A DNA stretch of 64,000 bases from Geobacillus subterraneus (GTDB taxonomy: Bacteria > Bacillota > Bacilli > Bacillales > Anoxybacillaceae): assembly GCF_001618685.1 (NCBI RefSeq), contig NZ_CP014342.1, forward strand, positions 1,922,001 through 1,986,000. Reading direction: 5' to 3'. The notes under the pieces were generated by a model. It saw only the letters and a list, made by a program, of their open reading frames with translations. It did no database searches and was not told where the DNA came from. A program made the translations under genes and the position numbers. Positions 15,704 through 57,312 of this stretch are shown here, piece after piece; the first letter of the stretch is position 1, and each line of letters opens with the position of its first letter.

Positions 15704-16046
15704 TTACTCGGCTCCAAGCGCGGCCCTCCGTTGCCCATGCATCTCCCCGCCGCTCATCAAGTAGTCGTACGCTTTGAGCATCAACTCGAGAGCCAACCGC
15801 TTGTCCGCTTCCATGAAATCAGTCCCAAGGAATCTTTCTAGCTTTTCCATGCGGTGGTACAACGTCTGCCGGACGATAAACAGCCGTTTTGCCGCCTCTT
15901 GCTTCGAACCGTTGCACTGCAGATACACTTTGAGCGTTTCAAGCAGCTTTCCATTATATTTCCGGTCATACTCAATAATCGGCCCTAAATATCGGTTGAT
16001 GGCCTCACGCAAATCGCTATATTTGTCCAACACTATAATCATCCGG
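15704..16046 (-). pseudogene. PucR-type regulator, C-terminal (HTH_30) fragment
   Basis: About 114 native codons after the TnpB element end: IVLDKYSDLREAINRYLGPI, then EYDRKYNGKLLETL and KQEAAKRLFIVRQTLYHRME. This is the helix-turn-helix tail of PucR/CdaR-type regulators. The open frame continues back into the inserted element, where it reads through the hairpin. The N-terminal part of the same gene lies at 17376-17886. About 250 residues of the expected middle (GGDEF-like) domain are missing from both pieces, so the regulator should be dead. Confidence 0.75.
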
Positions 16047-16130
16047 TGTGAACTACCCCCACTTAATTTTCTAGCGAAAATTTGAAGTGGGGGCTTCCAA
16101 AGAAGTTTGACTGCTTCAAGCAATCCTTAT
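16047..16130 (-). ncRNA. Candidate TnpB guide RNA (omega/reRNA) 3' end and right-end hairpin
   Basis: Immediately after tnpB, on the same strand, a strong hairpin spans 16056-16093: nine pairs (CCCCCACTT/AAGTGGGGG), a small bulge, then AATTTTC/GAAAATT closing a TAGC loop. It is followed by TAGTTCAC and then native regulator sequence. In IS200/IS605-type elements this position holds the transposon right end and the scaffold of the TnpB guide RNA, with the guide read from the flank. The 5' limit of the RNA is unknown. Confidence 0.5.
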
Positions 16131-17363
16131 TCTTTGAGGCGTGTCCACTTCGCCGCTAGAGCATAAGACACTCAGGTCTACAGCTTTACTTTTCTTTAAG
16201 ATGTTTAATGCGCCATTGACATCAGCATTAATTAGTTTGCCAGACTTTGTTCGATACAAGCCGCGCTTAACACGTTTGCCGCTGAACTTATATTCTTTTG
16301 GATTGTCGGCATTATATTCAGGAATCTCATCGCCGTCAAAAAAGCTGGCTTGAGACGTATATGATTCTTCCTGTTTCAAGAATTCAATGCCGTAAAATTC
16401 ACAAAGATATTCTAATTTTTCTTTTATGTTACCGAGAGGAATATTGACAAAGTTTTGATTTGTCTTTTTTCCTAGATTAATATTGCGTTGTAATGTTTCC
16501 GCATAGCCAATGACAAGTTTACCAATTTGATTTTCAATACAGTAGTTAATGATGTAACGGCAAGTCTTGTTGATATAATCATTCACTTTATTATTGCGAT
16601 TCATAGCAAGCAAAGCCTGTTTACGAGTCGTGCCTTTGATTTTTTGCTTATCTTTCATGCTTTGAAGTCTGGCATTTTCTTTGTTAAACCATTGATTTAT
16701 ACTTTTTAATCTCCGCCCATCAATGATGAATGATCTGCCGTCTGATGTGACACAAGTGGCAAGATTGTTTAATCCTAAATCAATGGCCAGTGCTTTTTGG
16801 TCGTTTAATTCTCTTTGATCTTCAGGCATTTCATATTTGTACTGAATCTCAAAGAACCTGGCATGATGCTTAGGAATGATTTCAATCTGCTTAATCTTTT
16901 TGTCCAGCAACACAGGCGGAATCGTTATCGTGATAGGCTTGTGAGTCTTTTTAAATAGGCGAGAATACGGTATCGTGAATTTGTTGCCGTCTATACGAAT
17001 CTGGCCAATGATCAGTGAATGAAAGCCATCTTTTTTAAGATATTTTGGAATACTGATAGCCTTGTAGTCATATTTTCCTTGTTTGGCAAGACTGATCAAA
17101 CCAAAGAAAGATTTAAAGGCTTCATTGACCTTTTTTAAAATTTGCTGTGCCATGTTGCTGTTTAACAGCTTATAGTTTTCGTTAGTTTTTGCAAGATGAT
17201 CGTTTTTCTCATAATTAAGAAATTCCTTGTGTTCAAAATAGTATTGTCTGACATTGTACAATCCGACGTTGTACATGTTCTTGGCAATATGGCACAGTTC
17301 TCGAAGAGTCAAGTATTCTTCTTTGGTCAAACCATTTAGCTGTTGTTTGATACAAAAATACAT
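16116..17363 (-). CDS. tnpB: TnpB RNA-guided nuclease (IS200/IS605, IS1341-type element)
   Basis: 415 residues from ATG 17363, with GGGAGGTG upstream. The N-terminal helical domain ([20 protein letters not shown]) is followed by RuvC-I ([19 protein letters not shown]). RuvC-III is seen in [10 protein letters not shown] near the C-terminus. The usual RuvC-II Glu is absent at [13 protein letters not shown]; instead [10 protein letters not shown] lies further on, as in TnpB clades described with a relocated catalytic Glu. The CxxC zinc ribbon is also missing. There is no tnpA partner, so this is an IS1341-type element that would need TnpA in trans. It is inserted in a PucR-type gene in the same orientation. 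Confidence 0.9.
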
Positions 17364-17375
17364 GTTTTCACCTCC

Positions 17376-17886
17376 CATCTAGGCAGCTGTGCAAAAACGT
17401 TAAAATCTCCCGATAATGATGAACCGTCAGCAGCTTTTTATTCAACTCTTGAGAATACGACTCAAGCTGGGAGATCATTTGATATTGCTGATTAATCAAA
17501 TACGTGTGAATGTCATGGGTAATCTCGACGAAAGGAACTTCCTCAAGAAAAAGAATGAGCGGGAAATGGTGGCGGTCAGCCAGCTCTAATGCCTCCTTTG
17601 GGATCGAGGAGGCGTACGTTCCCAATTCGATGCATAGCCCCGAAGCGTCACATTCAATCAACTGCCGAAGCAGCGATAAAAACAATGCGTCATCTTCCCG
17701 CCACCCGACACCGGTAGACAAAATGAGCTCTTTGCCGCGCAGCAAGTTGCTGATTTTTGTGACCTCGACGACATGCACCCACTTGACTGGCCTTGACAGC
17801 CCTTCTTTTCCAGCGACAACAACCGCTTTTTGGAAATAGTTTCTCTTTAATACATCAGCGACTGTCAGAGGAAAGCTGTACTCCAT
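17376..17886 (-). pseudogene. PucR-type regulator, N-terminal fragment
   Basis: About 170 residues from ATG 17886 (MEYSFPLTVADVLKR), with GAGGGGAGAGGGAAGG upstream. The sequence matches the PucR N-terminal domain: KWVHVVEVTKISNLLRGKEL, then GLCIELGTYASSIPKEALEL, then FPLILFLEEVPFVEITHDI. A coiled linker (QLESYSQELNKKL) follows and the frame ends inside the TnpB element at 17368. Family members activate catabolic genes next to them, here the aminotransferase and the divergent permease. With the C-terminal DNA-binding part separated, activity is doubtful. Confidence 0.82.
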
Positions 17887-17967
17887 CCTTCCCTCTCCCC
17901 TCTGTTTCATCCTTGTTAAGAATATTCGCAACTTTACGACCAAACTCCTTCTAAAATGGCAACGTCT

Positions 17968-20142: not shown

Positions 20143-20170
20143 CAGCCCGTTCGCCTAGCGAGCGGGCTAG
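20143..20170 (-). terminator. Hairpin overlapping the methyltransferase stop
   Basis: On the minus strand AGCCCGCTCG and CGAACGGGCT pair with one mismatch around CTAGG, followed by GGTTCCTTTTC. The 5' arm begins at the stop codon itself. Confidence 0.6.
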
Positions 20171-21591
20171 TTTGATTTCCGTTCAATTTGAAACACTTTA
20201 AAGCCGATATCGAGCTCCGTCTTCCCTGTGTCCCGTACGAGTTTCTCCCCCGCGCGCCGGATGCGCTCACGGCCGATGTCGCAAATCGTCCGCAATCCGG
20301 CTTGATATGCCGCTGACGTTTCCGCCAGCCGTTCAGGAAGCTGCACCATGATGAACGACCGCCGTCCCCCGTCTTCGGCGTTTTGCTGCATGACCGCATG
20401 GGCGGTCGTCGCCGAACCGGAAAAAAAGTCGAGGATGACATCATCGTTCTTCGTCGTCAGTGCGATCATACGCTGAATCAGCTTAACCGGCTTCGGGTAA
20501 TCCATCACCGCCACCCCACCAAACAGCTCCTTCAGCTCCTTTTTCGCCTCCTGCGAATGGGACACCTCGTCATGCGTCCAGATCGTGAGCGGTGTCATCG
20601 TCGGTTTCACCTCGTGCAAAAACCGCTTCAGGCGCGGCACCCCGTTTCCGTCCTTGCCAAACCAAATGCGGTTGTCCGCCGCCAATTCGGCAAAGCGCTC
20701 TTTCGTCACCCGCCAGCAATACCCATTCGGCGGGGGAACGACCCGGCCGCCCGGGGTCACGATGTCATAAACTTTTTCCGGAATGGGCGGACCGACCGAC
20801 AAATCGCCGGACGTCCACGGTCCGCGCGGGTCATTGTCCGGGTTGGCATACCGCCCATCCGCTTCCGGATGGCGCGGCAAGCCGTACCAAGCGAGGCGGT
20901 CGATATCTTTCGCATAACATAAAATGAAATCATGATTGCGCGAGGCGAACTTGTTCATGTTCACCGGCGAAAACGCCCGCTGCCAAATGAACGTCGCGAC
21001 AAAATTGCGCTCGCCGAAAATTTCATCGCACATTTTTTTCAAATTCGCCTGTTCCGTATCATCAATAGAAATAAAGATCGCCCCTGTTTCAGCCAACAAC
21101 GCCTTCGCCGCCCAAAGGCGCGGGTACATCATGTTGAGCCAGCCGGCATGGGCAAGCGCCTCTTCCCGCCCTAAACCTGAAGCGGCGCGTTTTCGCTTGC
21201 GCCAATTGTCTTTGTACATCAACGCTTTTCCTGTATTGTAAGGCGGATCAATGTAAATCATCTGCACTTTTCCTTCATGCGAGGAGCGCAAAAGCTTTAA
21301 CGCTTCCAAATTGTCTCCTTCAATATACCAGTTGTTCGTCGTTTCCCACCGCTTGCTTGCCGCCCGGTCGGGCCGCAGCACTCCCGTGGCGGGCATCTCC
21401 GCCAACCGCTTCGCCTCCGCTTTTCCTGGCCACGTAAACTCATACACTTCGTCCTCCGCCTGGCAGCCAAGCGCCTTTTTCAGCCGCTCCCAGTCAATCG
21501 CCTCGCCCGCCACCGCCTCCGGAAAAAGCTCCTTAACCAGCTCCAGCCTCGCGCTTGTTGCTTTTTTCGCTCTCCTGCCGCCGTTTGCCAT
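20167..21591 (-). CDS. Type III Mod-like adenine-N6 DNA methyltransferase, C-terminally short, no Res partner
   Basis: 474 residues from ATG 21591 (MANGGRRAKKATSARLELV), with GGGGGAGGGG six bases upstream. The beta-class order of motifs is seen: catalytic DPPYNTG at about 115-121, and the AdoMet-binding DFFSGSATTAHAVMQ near residue 395. The target-recognition region lies between. Mod subunits usually run to about 600 residues; here the protein stops just after the GFKVFQIE segment, where others continue. No restriction (res) gene is adjacent on either side. It may be an orphan methylase or the remnant of a type III system. A hairpin terminator starts at the stop codon. Confidence 0.85.
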   Translation of the reverse strand: MANGGRRAKKATSARLELVKELFPEAVAGEAIDWERLKKALGCQAEDEVYEFTWPGKAEAKRLAEMPATGVLRPDRAASKRWETTNNWYIEGDNLEALKLLRSSHEGKVQMIYIDPPYNTGKALMYKDNWRKRKRAASGLGREEALAHAGWLNMMYPRLWAAKALLAETGAIFISIDDTEQANLKKMCDEIFGERNFVATFIWQRAFSPVNMNKFASRNHDFILCYAKDIDRLAWYGLPRHPEADGRYANPDNDPRGPWTSGDLSVGPPIPEKVYDIVTPGGRVVPPPNGYCWRVTKERFAELAADNRIWFGKDGNGVPRLKRFLHEVKPTMTPLTIWTHDEVSHSQEAKKELKELFGGVAVMDYPKPVKLIQRMIALTTKNDDVILDFFSGSATTAHAVMQQNAEDGGRRSFIMVQLPERLAETSAAYQAGLRTICDIGRERIRRAGEKLVRDTGKTELDIGFKVFQIERKSN

Positions 21592-21702
21592 CGCACGCCC
21601 CTCCCCCACGCCGCCTTGCTGCGGCGTTTCTTGTCCGCGAAAAAGTGCTCGTGTTTCCATTATTTCGCCATGGCAAACGGTTTTCCTGCCTCCATTTCTA
21701 GC

Positions 21703-21740
21703 CGAAAAACACCCCCGCCTCCTGCGAACGGAAGCGGGGG
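21703..21740 (-). terminator. Terminator downstream of the CRISPR array
   Basis: On the minus strand CCCCCGCTTCC and GGAGGCGGGGG (21712-21740) pair with one wobble, followed by TGTTTTTCG. It lies directly after the terminal repeat, so it should end the array transcript. Confidence 0.7.
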
Positions 21741-21847
21741 GTAGAATCCTCTAAACGAGGCTTTCCTCTTTCAAGATATTGAGAATTACACTAAAGAAGA
21801 AATGGAAGAATGTTTCAATCCTCTAAACGAGGCCTTCCTCTTTCAAG
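21740..21847 (-). CRISPR. One-spacer CRISPR array, no cas genes in the window
   Basis: Two 36-nt repeats (21812-21847 and 21740-21775) flank one 36-nt spacer (21776-21811). Read on the minus strand, the first repeat starts CTTGAAAGAGGAAG and ends in ATTGAAAC, the 8-nt 5'-handle common to many type I and III systems. Repeat two differs at one internal base (T for C) and at its last five bases, the usual decay of the leader-distal repeat. An internal CCTC-GTTTA-GAGG can fold. A promoter sits immediately upstream and a terminator follows. Nearest genes are a methyltransferase and a Dna2-like nuclease-helicase. Confidence 0.85.
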
Positions 21848-21856
21848 AGCACCTTC

Positions 21857-21885
21857 ATTTTACCATTGATTTTCTAAGGCGGCAA
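21857..21885 (-). promoter_or_regulatory. CRISPR leader promoter
   Basis: On the minus strand TTGCCG (21880-21885), exactly 17 bp, then TAAAAT (21857-21862). Transcription would start at the edge of the first repeat. The AT-rich stretch 21848-21960 acts as the leader. Confidence 0.6.
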
Positions 21886-22020
21886 GAGGCCATTTTGCAC
21901 ACCCCTTCCACCCCCTCGAAAAATAAAATGTGGTTATGTCAACTTGTATGATTGACTAAAAACGTCAACTGTCCAAACTTTTGATAAATCAAGGTCATGT
22001 TTCGTTTCGCGAAAGAAAAA

Positions 22021-22159: not shown

Positions 22160-25100
22160 TTACTGGCTGCGGGAAGCCACCTGATCGAACACGCGGCAAC
22201 CGACTCGATACATGTGCAAGACGGCACCGTCAACAACGAACGTTCGGGCTTCTCCGTGCTTTGATGCATAGTGCTCAAGACTCAACATAAAGTTGACCCC
22301 TTCGCGATACTCGTCGTTATCTAACACGTGCAGCGAGGGGGACAGCAGATGGCGGGAAAGGAAAAGAATCGTCTTTTTTCGCGCGCGTGTGAGCGAGACG
22401 TTCAATCGGTTGAGGCTGTAGATGAACTCCCCTTCCATCGCGGCCAGTTCCGGGTCGGCGACGCCGTAGCTGATGATCGCCGCTTCTGCCTCTTGCCCCT
22501 GCATTTTGTCGACCGTATCGACGAAAAACGGCGAGCGCAGCCCTTCGCGTTCAAGCGCACGGCGGATGGCGCGGATCTGCGCCCGGTGCGGTGAGATGAT
22601 AAACAAGCCGCGGCGCCAAAACGCCTTGTCGCCGTCTGGCGTATCGTGATATCGTTTTCCGTCGTCATCAAGCAGCCGCTCCCGAAGCGTTTTCGTTACA
22701 CTCGCCACCCAACGCGCTTCCGCCTCGTTTTCTTGCGCACCGTACACGCCGTCATACGTGCAGACGACAAGCGGATAGTCAGGATCGATCGCCGCTTCCA
22801 CCCATTCATCGGCAGTTGGAGCGTCGACGAGCGCCAGCGTTTGTTCGGCAATTTGGCGGGTGAACGCCGTATAGTCACGTCCATAAATCCGATCGGCCGG
22901 GTAGCGGCAAAGCGCCTCATTCATACGGAAATTGTCCGTCAATTGGCGGGTATACCGCTTCTCGACATCGGCGTCAAACAACAGGCGGAAAATCGAGTCG
23001 AACAAGTGCGGCTCCCCTTCGCCGGCCGCATACGTCCCTTGAATGATCGGCGGCAGCTGGAAATGGTCGCCGACGATAAGCAGCCTGCCTGCTTTTTTGA
23101 CATGGCGTAACGCCAACAGTGAATCGGCCACGCGGACTTGCGACGCCTCATCAAGGACGACGACGTCAAACCCTTCTATATAGCCTTTTTCGTATGCCCT
23201 TTGAATGCCGTACAGCGTGGCGCCAAGCACCCGATGGCCGCCGCTGCCAAACCATCCGAGAAGGTCACGGTCCGCCACCTCGGCGATTCCTTTGGCGTTT
23301 TCCGTCTGAATCTCACCAAGTTTCGCGATATGGACGCTGCGCCGCGGCGCAAGCTCCTGAATTTTGCGCAGAACGTTTTCGATCGCCGCGTGAGTGAAGC
23401 CGGAGATGAGAATGGCAAGCCTCCGCCCCTGATGTTCGTAAATCGCCATAAGCAACTGAAGAGCGGCGGCGATAAAGTGCGTTTTTCCAGTGCCAGGCGG
23501 CCCCCAGACGAGTGTCAACGTATGGCGGAGAAAGTGGAGAAACGCCTGGCGCTGGCTTTTCGTCAGCCCGCTTTGGCGGAGGAGCGCCTTCACCTCCTCT
23601 ACATCCCAGTTGGGACGAAACGTTTTCCGATAGCGAATCGGATCGCGAATCAAGTCCAAGATGCGATGATTTTCCTGATCCAACTGTTGCAACGCCTGCA
23701 AGACGCGCCGGGTGGTAAAATCGGCATGCCGGATCGACAGCCGATACTCCTCTCCTTCCACAAGCGGGAACCGGTCGAGCCATTTGGGCAACTCGAGCTC
23801 GAGTTCAGCTGTCTTGCCATCATCTTCGATGGCGCGAATGCGGGTAAAGTACAAATTGGCCCATTGGGGCGGCTTCCATTCGCTGGAATACTTATAATCT
23901 GGAAACGCCTGTTGCGCCTTTTCCCCTTCCTCATTGCACTCCGTCAAAAGCCAGCTCGCCCTTTGATCGATCGCTTCAAGCGCCTGGCGGTTGTTCAATC
24001 GGAACCGATCGCCGCCAAGGTACGTGACATGAAGCGTCACTCCGTTCTCAAGCCGCTCCGAAAGCGGGAGCAGGCGGCTTCGGCGAATTTCCAAGTAGTT
24101 TAATAGCGCCTCGTAGCGCGCCATAAACGCCAGCTTGGACACAAGCGGATCACGGTAATCAGCCAGATCGGGAAAAGCAAATTTTTCCGGCCAGACCATA
24201 AGTGGCGAAGGATCGACGCTCTCGGCCCACGCACGGATTCCTTGAATGATGCTGTGAGCGGCCCAAAGACGCCGGCTTAGCTCCTTCTCGACCGCTTTTC
24301 GTTTTTCCTCGTCCCCCGTTTGCCAGGCGTCGTGCAGCACATCCAGTTTCATGGCGTTTGTCAAACGAAATGAAAAACGCTCACTCGCCGAGTACAGAAA
24401 CGGCGAATCATTGTAGGCCGCAATATATCGCGACAAGTCTTCAAGACGGTACGCGACATGCGCCGGCAAGGCGAACAGCTGGCTCACGGCCGTTGTCAGG
24501 ACAACGACAGGAAGCGGAACCATTTCGCTTGGGTGGTCGCTGGCACTTGCTAATGAGCTGCTATGAAAATAAGACAGCAACCGAACGGCTTTTTCTTGAT
24601 ATTCTGGATCGAACAAAAGCTCTTGAAGCAACTGTTGCACATTGTCCCATTCATAGTTGTCGACGACATACGCCTGCACGGACTTTTGCGCCCGCCACTC
24701 TCGCTCTCGGTTGTAATCGTGCACCGTATGAAGCAGGCGGTCCAGCGCATCGGCCAGCTTTCGGCCAACCTCGTCGCATTCCTCAAACGAACCGGCGATA
24801 ACATGATGCATTTCTGATCCCGTTCCAAACACATCTGTTCCACCAACACGGTACAACGATGCCGCCGCAATCTTCCCCGTCAACGGATCGCGTTGCGCGG
24901 TGAGAATCAGACGGATGTCTTCCCATATCGGCATATGCGTCACCGCCTGGTCATACGGAACGACCTTTTCCTCCGCAATCGCCTCAAGCTGCGCTTCAAG
25001 CCGCCGAAGTTGGCGCGCCAGCCCGGCGTTTTGTTTCAGCACATGCCTGTTTTCTTGACGTTCAAGAAATTGGCGAAACTCACCGATCGTCTCAGGCAGC

Positions 25101-25927
25101 TGCCGCTCACGGATGAAGCGGGACGTGTAGTTCGATAAGTACGGAACGAGGGAAATATGCGACTGTTTCCGCGCTTTGTCGAAACAGTAATCATAGAACG
25201 GGCACCATTCACAGCGATAATCCAAATGCCAAAACAGCTCATCAAGTTGCTTCCCAGCCAGCGCCGTCAGTTCGCCAGCCAAAAACTGTTCGAGATACGG
25301 GAGCAACTGGCTGATATCCGCTGCTTGCGGCTGCTCGGTTTTGTACGTCCATACCCCCGCTTCGCGCCAATCCACATTGCCCCTAATGCCGTGCTCCTCT
25401 AAAACGGAAGACAAAATCAAGGCGTACAACGCCGTTTGCACGCGGTGGGAAAGCTTCAACACGTCTGATGATTTGATGTCGATGATGCGAAACACAAAGC
25501 CGTTTTGTCCCGGTATGCACTCAATCAAATCCGGGCGGCACGCCGCAAAATGGATGTCGTCCCGATCCAACCCGTACCGTTCGTAAAAGCGCGGCGGCGC
25601 GATCAATGTCGGCTGATACAAATATCGCTTGCTCGGCCGCTTCAACTCGCGGATCGTTTCCTCGCCATCCAAATAGCAGTGGGAAATCGGTGCGCCAGGC
25701 TCTCGCTTCCCCATCTGCACTTGGCCGGCCAAATAGGTCGTAATCACTTCCTCTTCCCACTCAACCCCTCGGCGCAGCACGCTCTGATGCACCGCGGGCC
25801 GCTCAAACAGCTCTTCCGGCACATCGAGCTCGCCGCGCCGCTCTTTCGCCAACGACTGAAAATAAAAATTCCGCTCGCACTCATGATAAAAATAGCTTGC
25901 GATTTTGGCAGGAGAAACGTAAAGCAT
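22160..25927 (-). CDS. Dna2/TM0106-like fused RecB-type nuclease and SF1 helicase
   Basis: 1255 residues from ATG 25927 (MLYVSPAKIASYFY), with AAAGGGAT upstream; the frame runs to 26002 without an RBS. N-terminal RecB/Cas4-type nuclease: first cluster Cys in HECERNFYF (about residue 18), catalytic ACRPDLIE and IIDIKSS (about 151), QTALYALIL, and Cys triad CEWCPFYDYC (about 234-243), which together should bind [4Fe-4S]. C-terminal SF1B helicase: GPPGTGKT (about 808), VVLDEASQV (about 922), GDHFQLPP, VDTVDKMQGQEAEAAI, and NVSLTRARKKTI. The middle 400 residues are unassigned. It probably unwinds and cuts DNA with free ends; a role in repair or phage defence is inference from the neighbouring methylase and CRISPR array. 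Confidence 0.88.
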   Translation of the reverse strand: MLYVSPAKIASYFYHECERNFYFQSLAKERRGELDVPEELFERPAVHQSVLRRGVEWEEEVITTYLAGQVQMGKREPGAPISHCYLDGEETIRELKRPSKRYLYQPTLIAPPRFYERYGLDRDDIHFAACRPDLIECIPGQNGFVFRIIDIKSSDVLKLSHRVQTALYALILSSVLEEHGIRGNVDWREAGVWTYKTEQPQAADISQLLPYLEQFLAGELTALAGKQLDELFWHLDYRCEWCPFYDYCFDKARKQSHISLVPYLSNYTSRFIRERQLPETIGEFRQFLERQENRHVLKQNAGLARQLRRLEAQLEAIAEEKVVPYDQAVTHMPIWEDIRLILTAQRDPLTGKIAAASLYRVGGTDVFGTGSEMHHVIAGSFEECDEVGRKLADALDRLLHTVHDYNREREWRAQKSVQAYVVDNYEWDNVQQLLQELLFDPEYQEKAVRLLSYFHSSSLASASDHPSEMVPLPVVVLTTAVSQLFALPAHVAYRLEDLSRYIAAYNDSPFLYSASERFSFRLTNAMKLDVLHDAWQTGDEEKRKAVEKELSRRLWAAHSIIQGIRAWAESVDPSPLMVWPEKFAFPDLADYRDPLVSKLAFMARYEALLNYLEIRRSRLLPLSERLENGVTLHVTYLGGDRFRLNNRQALEAIDQRASWLLTECNEEGEKAQQAFPDYKYSSEWKPPQWANLYFTRIRAIEDDGKTAELELELPKWLDRFPLVEGEEYRLSIRHADFTTRRVLQALQQLDQENHRILDLIRDPIRYRKTFRPNWDVEEVKALLRQSGLTKSQRQAFLHFLRHTLTLVWGPPGTGKTHFIAAALQLLMAIYEHQGRRLAILISGFTHAAIENVLRKIQELAPRRSVHIAKLGEIQTENAKGIAEVADRDLLGWFGSGGHRVLGATLYGIQRAYEKGYIEGFDVVVLDEASQVRVADSLLALRHVKKAGRLLIVGDHFQLPPIIQGTYAAGEGEPHLFDSIFRLLFDADVEKRYTRQLTDNFRMNEALCRYPADRIYGRDYTAFTRQIAEQTLALVDAPTADEWVEAAIDPDYPLVVCTYDGVYGAQENEAEARWVASVTKTLRERLLDDDGKRYHDTPDGDKAFWRRGLFIISPHRAQIRAIRRALEREGLRSPFFVDTVDKMQGQEAEAAIISYGVADPELAAMEGEFIYSLNRLNVSLTRARKKTILFLSRHLLSPSLHVLDNDEYREGVNFMLSLEHYASKHGEARTFVVDGAVLHMYRVGCRVFDQVASRSQ

Positions 25928-26096
25928 ACATCGATCCCTTTCTAAAACGTACTGGCCGATGCCCGCACTGAGATTTGTCAGTTTGTTTATCCATTGTATC
26001 ATATGTTTGTACGCTTTCCTATATACACCATTCCTGCTTGTCTAACAAGAACATATGTGCTATAATGAAGGAAATTAAGATGAAAGAGGGGCCAAC

Positions 26097-26951
26097 ATGA
26101 GCGAAGAGATCCTCTTGCAACTGTTCGACCGGCTCGGTCATATCGAAAACACGTTGCATCTCCTCGTCGAAAGCCACAAACGGCTGGAAGCGGAACAACA
26201 AGAAATGCGAAAAGAGCAGCAGGAGATCCGAAGAGAACAGCAAGAAATACGGAAAGAGCAGCAGGAGATCCGAAGAGAACAACAGGAAATGCGGAAAGAG
26301 CAGCAGGAGATCCGAAGAGAACAGCAAGAAATGCGAAAAGAACAGCAGGAGATCCGAAGAGAACAACAGGAAATGCGGAAAGAGCAGCAGGAGATCCGAA
26401 GAGAACAGCAAGAAATGCGAAAAGAACAGCAGGAGATCCGAAGAGAACAGCAAGAAATGCGCAAAGAGCAGCAGGAGATCCGAAGAGAACAGCAAGAAAT
26501 GCGAAAAGAACAGCAGGAGATCCGAAGAGAACAGCAAGAAATGCGAAAAGAACAGCAGGAGATCCGAAGAGAACAGCAAGAAATGCGGAAAGAACAAGAA
26601 GAATTCCGACTCATCCAGCAAGCTCTCCTTGAAGGCCAAAAGCGGTTGGAAGAAGAACAAGCCCATATCAAAGCCGGCCAAAAAGAGCTGTATGACTTGA
26701 TGTCTGCCCTGCTTCACCGCCAGGATGAAACCGACGCTGCACTTGAAGCCCTCGCCATGGACGTGCATAAACTTCACGGTGAAGTCTCTTCCATCCATCA
26801 AAGGCTCGACTCCTTAGAGAAAAAGGTTGACGCCCATGTCCAATCATTCACCGACGAGCTGAACAACGCAAAGCTTGATATCGCCTTCCTCTCAAACAAA
26901 GTCATCGAACACGAACGGGACATCTATAAAATAAAACAGGTCATTTTATGA
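26097..26951 (+). CDS. Long coiled-coil protein with 14-residue tandem repeats
   Basis: 284 residues from ATG 26097, with AAGAGGGG upstream. A short N-terminal segment (MSEEILLQLFDRLGHIENTL) is followed by nine near-identical 14-residue units (KEQQEIRREQQEMR; the first has I for M) and then a less regular coiled coil to the end (VSSIHQRLDSLEKK, LDIAFLSNKVIEHERDIYKI). No signal peptide or membrane span. The flanking portions resemble the small coiled-coil proteins found in many Geobacillus genomes, including the one at 52846-53199. It is divergent from the nuclease-helicase gene. Function is unknown. The repeat number probably varies between strains. Confidence 0.85.
   Translation: MSEEILLQLFDRLGHIENTLHLLVESHKRLEAEQQEMRKEQQEIRREQQEIRKEQQEIRREQQEMRKEQQEIRREQQEMRKEQQEIRREQQEMRKEQQEIRREQQEMRKEQQEIRREQQEMRKEQQEIRREQQEMRKEQQEIRREQQEMRKEQQEIRREQQEMRKEQEEFRLIQQALLEGQKRLEEEQAHIKAGQKELYDLMSALLHRQDETDAALEALAMDVHKLHGEVSSIHQRLDSLEKKVDAHVQSFTDELNNAKLDIAFLSNKVIEHERDIYKIKQVIL
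26211..26588 (+). repeat. Nine tandem 42-bp units inside the coiled-coil gene
   Basis: Units of exactly 42 bp, marked by GGAGATCCGAAGAGAACA, recur every 42 bases from 26211 to 26588. The length keeps the reading frame and also a multiple of seven residues, so the coiled-coil register is preserved when the number changes. Confidence 0.95.
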
Positions 26952-57013: not shown

Positions 57014-57108
57014 CTCAAAAACGGTAAACGAATCTCTTAACTATGTGAATATGTTACGGTGACTTGAGGGTGGATCGGCCTCCCCTGATTTGGAAGGGGG
57101 TGATGCCG

Positions 57109-57195
57109 ATGACAGTATTTGAAGCATTGATGTTTTTTCGCAAGTCGCATGGTTTCAATACTGTCGCACAATCAAAAGAAATAATCCACCCTTAA
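57109..57195 (+). pseudogene. Type I (holin-like) toxin with a frameshift in a T-run
   Basis: GGAAGGGGGTG precedes ATG 57109, giving MTVFEALM, the hallmark start of small Gram-positive membrane toxins (TxpA/BsrG/holin-like group). After a run of six T the frame becomes atypical (FFRKSHGF) and ends at 57195. With five T it would read MFFASRMVSILSHNQKK and stop at 57184, exactly the expected toxin tail. So it is a one-base frameshift, natural or a sequencing artefact. Antisense antitoxin RNA would be expected on the minus strand. Confidence 0.72.
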
Positions 57196-57223
57196 GTTAA
57201 CGAGGCGCTTAGGCGGATTATTT
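57179..57223. terminator. Hairpin at the toxin 3' end, likely shared with an antitoxin RNA
   Basis: AAATAATCC/GGATTATTT (57179-57187, 57215-57223) with a partly paired interior. T-rich flanks on both sides suit convergent termination in a type I toxin-antitoxin locus. Confidence 0.6.
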
Positions 57224-57312
57224 CCTTCTGCTCGCGCCGACCCCCTTTATGGGAACCGTCTATTGCGGGGCTGAAGGTGCAGCAACACCTTTGGCTTCAC
57301 TTGTTATTTTGT

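Follow-up and report, generated by a model that had tools for sequence, protein, structure and literature searches.

A one-spacer orphan CRISPR array in Geobacillus subterraneus, most likely left by a lost or separate type III-B system

Introduction

CRISPR arrays that are isolated from cas genes have been surveyed previously, and that work names spacer diversity as the feature by which true CRISPRs are told from spurious ones (PMC5294841). Cas6 and the adaptation genes can be shared between type I-B and type III-B systems (PMC12814883), and Geobacillus icigianus has been reported with two III-B systems (PMC12424400). Here, a very short array at 1.944 Mb of the G. subterraneus genome (G000), lying within a stretch of 64,000 nucleotides referred to below as the window, was compared with these systems and with related loci in other genomes of the bacterial family. 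The locus is probably an orphan mini-array, in the sense of a real CRISPR array cut down to one spacer, situated apart from any cas operon and static in this genome; its leader and repeat belong to a Geobacillus family whose closest cas association, a III-B (Cmr) operon, lies at a different site in the genome of a relative and is lacking from this one. On comparison of orthologous sequences the array is genuine and ordinary in kind, as documented by spacer turnover, and its most likely origin is a III-B system that has been lost or that is separate from the array.

Results

Anatomy of the array

An earlier note, prepared from the sequence alone, described a minimal array of two 36-nt repeats and one 36-nt spacer, with a promoter, a decayed tag in the terminal repeat and a terminator. 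All of these parts were recovered, in each case on the minus strand (Table 1), and orthologous loci with different spacers were found in addition. The sizes agree with those of CRISPRs (repeats of ~23-47 nt and a spacer of similar size), as does the presence of a leader before the first repeat and of a degenerate terminal repeat, which differs from the leader-proximal copy by one internal mismatch in addition to the decayed end.

Table 1. Features of the array and its flanking genes in the G. subterraneus window.
Feature	Position	Strand	Basis
CRISPR leader	21848..21990 (upstream limit approximate)	-	DNA search and alignment of seven orthologous sites
Promoter-like TTGCCG-17-TAAAAT, TG ahead of -10	21857..21885	-	Promoter scan and sequence
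Leader-proximal repeat, 36 nt, CTTGAAAGAGGAAGGCCTCGTTTAGAGGATTGAAAC, ends GAGGATTGAAAC	21812..21847	-	Repeat comparison
Spacer, 36 nt	21776..21811	-	Sequence and orthologue alignment
Terminal repeat, 3' end decayed (ATTCTACC replaces ATTGAAAC)	21740..21775	-	Repeat comparison
Intrinsic terminator adjoining terminal repeat	21703..21740	-	Terminator scan
Flanking gene outside array: type III-like N6/N4 DNA methyltransferase; marks orthologous site	20167..21660	-	
Flanking gene outside array: PD-(D/E)XK nuclease + SF1 helicase protein	22160..26002	-	

The terminator hairpin begins at the end of the terminal repeat and comprises 11 G+C-rich base pairs (21740-21712) followed by TGTTTTT. Scans returned two promoter-like sites versus 0.4 in shuffled sequences and five terminator-like sites versus 0.7, and the expected transcription start coincides with the first repeat or slightly precedes it. 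The stability of the repeat's hairpin is not significantly above that of shuffles. At up to three mismatches the repeat matched only the two copies of the array in the 3,474,426-base genome (a reversed control pattern gave zero matches), and no further array with the exact AGGATTGAAAC repeat end was found there. Elsewhere in the window, an ORF at 26097-26951 carries a highly repetitive REQQEMRKEQQEI-type repeat and probably encodes a coiled coil, and positions 57045-57293 match the BsrG type I toxin-antitoxin RNA family (Rfam RF01412, 84.9 bits).

Orthologous loci and spacer turnover

Forty-one genomes of the bacterial family were searched with the repeat and leader as DNA query, and the leader-repeat family was located in 15. 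Gene neighbours and alignment place it at the same site, beside the methyltransferase gene, in six relatives (G001, G008, G012, G010, G009 and G005), and across seven species the orthologous positions retain leader, repeat and terminator. One intact spacer is present in each of G000, G001 and G008, and the three are mutually unrelated in sequence, that is, spacers are unique and vary between relatives as in true CRISPRs. In G012 and G010 the locus has no spacer and comprises a leader, a single repeat and a terminator; the loci of G009 and G005 are degraded. Spacers at this site would thus have been gained and lost over species time, and this turnover argues for a real CRISPR array. Moreover, the lone repeat of G012 bears the terminal-repeat end ATTCTACC, and the empty loci would fit deletion of the spacer unit through recombination between the two repeats.

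The same turnover is evidence against a conserved regulatory guide. The earlier note had raised the possibility of a dedicated regulatory guide, taken here as a crRNA-like RNA directed at a host gene, a role that a single spacer with its own promoter and terminator would suit. However, the orthologous loci have an unrelated spacer or none, the best match of the spacer to the cas regions (21/36) is at chance level, being no better than that of shuffled spacers (mean 21.7), and no other match was found in the genus at up to three mismatches; this reading is accordingly regarded as very improbable. Scarcely credible is the reading, also allowed for at the outset, that the repeats belong to a dispersed element that merely resembles CRISPR. 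Leader-repeat copies do occur at multiple sites of the chromosome, and several have just one repeat, but tag and spacing are CRISPR-typical and relatives do possess arrays and cas genes linked to the family: in G037, which belongs to a different genus, three spacers are set among four repeats behind the same kind of leader, and a Cmr operon of G001 is flanked by leader-repeat copies.

As evidence for function, sequence conservation gave mixed results. Between G000 and G008 the promoter and repeat are 97% identical, whereas identity is 81% in the intergenic DNA on the flanks and 73% at fourfold sites; in G001 and G012 conservation is no higher than in the flank, and in G005 it is lower.

Spacer target

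No convincing protospacer for the spacer emerged when viral contigs were scanned, with both degenerate and exact patterns, or when phages and plasmids were searched by BLAST. Matches to mobile elements are weak, and involve terminase genes but also unrelated genes. The plus strand of the spacer is open for IENYTKEEMEE, whose likeness to phage proteins is loose. An origin in a P27-type terminase small subunit was considered, since the same frame reads KKNYTKEEIE or DKNYSKEEIK in phages or plasmids of Listeria, Enterococcus and Staphylococcus, but was dropped because unrelated phage proteins contain the short motif too and a tail fibre gene matches almost equally well. The spacers of G001, G008, G012 and G037 gave no phage match, and for two of these relatives' spacers exact scans of viral contigs were empty.

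Cas genes of the genome

The absence of cas genes described in the earlier note holds locally, the array being neighboured by the methyltransferase and helicase-nuclease genes rather than by the cmr genes of a type III-B locus. It does not hold genome-wide: the Cas proteins that the note supposed might be encoded elsewhere are found at a distance of ~0.95 Mb, where they adjoin a different repeat. The type I-B set at 2.892 Mb comprises a single Cas1 match, cas2, cas3, cas4, cas5, cas6, cas7 and cas8, and a III-B cmr operon lies near 2.905-2.914 Mb, ~0.96 Mb from the array. Both operons adjoin long arrays of a 30-nt repeat, GTTTTTATCGTACCTATGAGGGATTGAAAC, which shares its ATTGAAAC end (the 8-nt tag) with the orphan repeat and otherwise differs, and the leaders of the I-B arrays look unrelated to the orphan leader. 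Since repeat body and leader differ, processing of the orphan repeat by the resident Cas6 is uncertain.

The sole cas1 reading frame (~2.893-2.8945 Mb; L043:10640-11920) is split by the DDE transposase gene of an insertion sequence, which separates the N-terminal part from the rest, such that the genome lacks the intact Cas1 of an array active in spacer acquisition. Acquisition is therefore probably disabled, and the array probably frozen in this strain. A second mobile element was observed nearby, namely an IS605-type OrfB (TnpB-like, 420 aa) between cas2 and cas6 (L043:8012-9345), which shares 99.5% identity across 1334 bases with a copy at 16048-17381 of the window; ORFs flanking the window copy (15704-16123 and 17368-17943) resemble two halves of one PucR-like regulator.

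Two forms of the orphan mini-array can feasibly be distinguished. It is plausible, at somewhat less than even odds, that the array is a non-functional relic, unprocessed, unused now and slowly decaying, as suggested by the interrupted cas1, the different repeat beside the resident Cas systems and the decayed or empty loci of G005, G009, G010 and G012. Genome searches revealed no Cas1 and no RAMP match in G008, G009, G012, G037 or G038, and in G009, G012 and G038, which carry such leader-repeat loci, a Cas6 match is absent also. Lone cas6 genes are present in G008 and G037 (L141:12066-12872; L142:13401-14192), and the neighbours scanned include no further cas gene; that of G008 adjoins a short array of I-B-like repeat. 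Against a relic stand the promoter, leader-proximal repeat and tag, all intact in this genome, and the strong conservation versus G008. More tentatively, the array may be live, with the resident Cas6, Cmr or I-B complexes drawing one crRNA from it in trans. The 8-nt tag is identical, which makes such use in trans possible; cas6 and cmr genes are present, a promoter and terminator are predicted, and I-B and III-B repeats are generally alike, with one Cas6 able to serve several systems (PMC12814883). Conversely, the differing repeat body and leader, and the failure to find a protospacer, speak against it.

A second site and the Cmr operon of G001

A second leader-repeat site lies between HAD hydrolase and aroD genes, where the G. 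subterraneus genome has just one degenerate repeat and its leader. In G001, the G. icigianus relative, two leader-repeat copies occur at this site, the second of them with one spacer, and between them lies a Cmr1-6 operon accompanied by a TIGR02221-family protein. This second III-B operon, flanked by two related copies, is the closest cas association of the family. Its Cmr2, Cmr4 and Cmr5 are only 26-37% identical to those of G. subterraneus, whereas the other cmr operon of G001 is 97-98% identical to the G. subterraneus operon, which ties the leader-repeat family to a III-B system absent here. In G008 the HAD-side and aroD-side copies are on different contigs (L045:1-5650 and L046:1-7800), and their inner sides encode signal peptidase, ABC transporter and two-component genes, unlike the content of the G001 operon. 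It is conceivable, though unlikely, that in Geobacillus isolated leader-repeat units serve as ports for recombination, where copies at conserved sites gain and lose single spacers and those at HAD-aroD have bracketed an entire Cmr operon as it was gained or lost.

Discussion

The orphan mini-array, if expressed from its own predicted promoter, would yield one crRNA with the usual AUUGAAAC tag, starting AUUGAAAC-AUUCUUCC, which the Cas6, I-B and Cmr complexes of the genome might use in trans. The finding is modest in itself. However, the orthologous loci show how a CRISPR array is reduced to a single spacer, or loses it altogether, yet keeps its leader and terminator, and they form a natural set for testing whether an orphan array can be served in trans by Cas6 or Cmr of another repeat type.

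With regard to known systems, the array resembles the isolated arrays of PMC5294841 in having a true repeat-spacer structure far from cas genes, with spacer diversity, but differs in having one spacer only and in keeping its leader and terminator; unlike the static Streptococcus pyogenes array of that survey, the loci orthologous to it turn over. Virus-borne mini-CRISPR arrays (PMC6858448) are likewise very short and without cas genes, whereas the G. subterraneus array is chromosomal and its site is conserved between species. The resident I-B and III-B system shares the ATTGAAAC tag but differs in its 30-nt repeat, unrelated leader and long arrays. The second III-B (Cmr) locus of G. icigianus (PMC12424400; G001 contig 56) has a related leader, a CCTC-N5-GAGG-ATTGAAAC repeat end and a one-spacer array in common with the G. 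subterraneus locus, and differs from it in the repeat body (GTTTA in G. subterraneus against a GCGGA loop) and in possessing Cmr1-6 where the G. subterraneus site is without cas genes.
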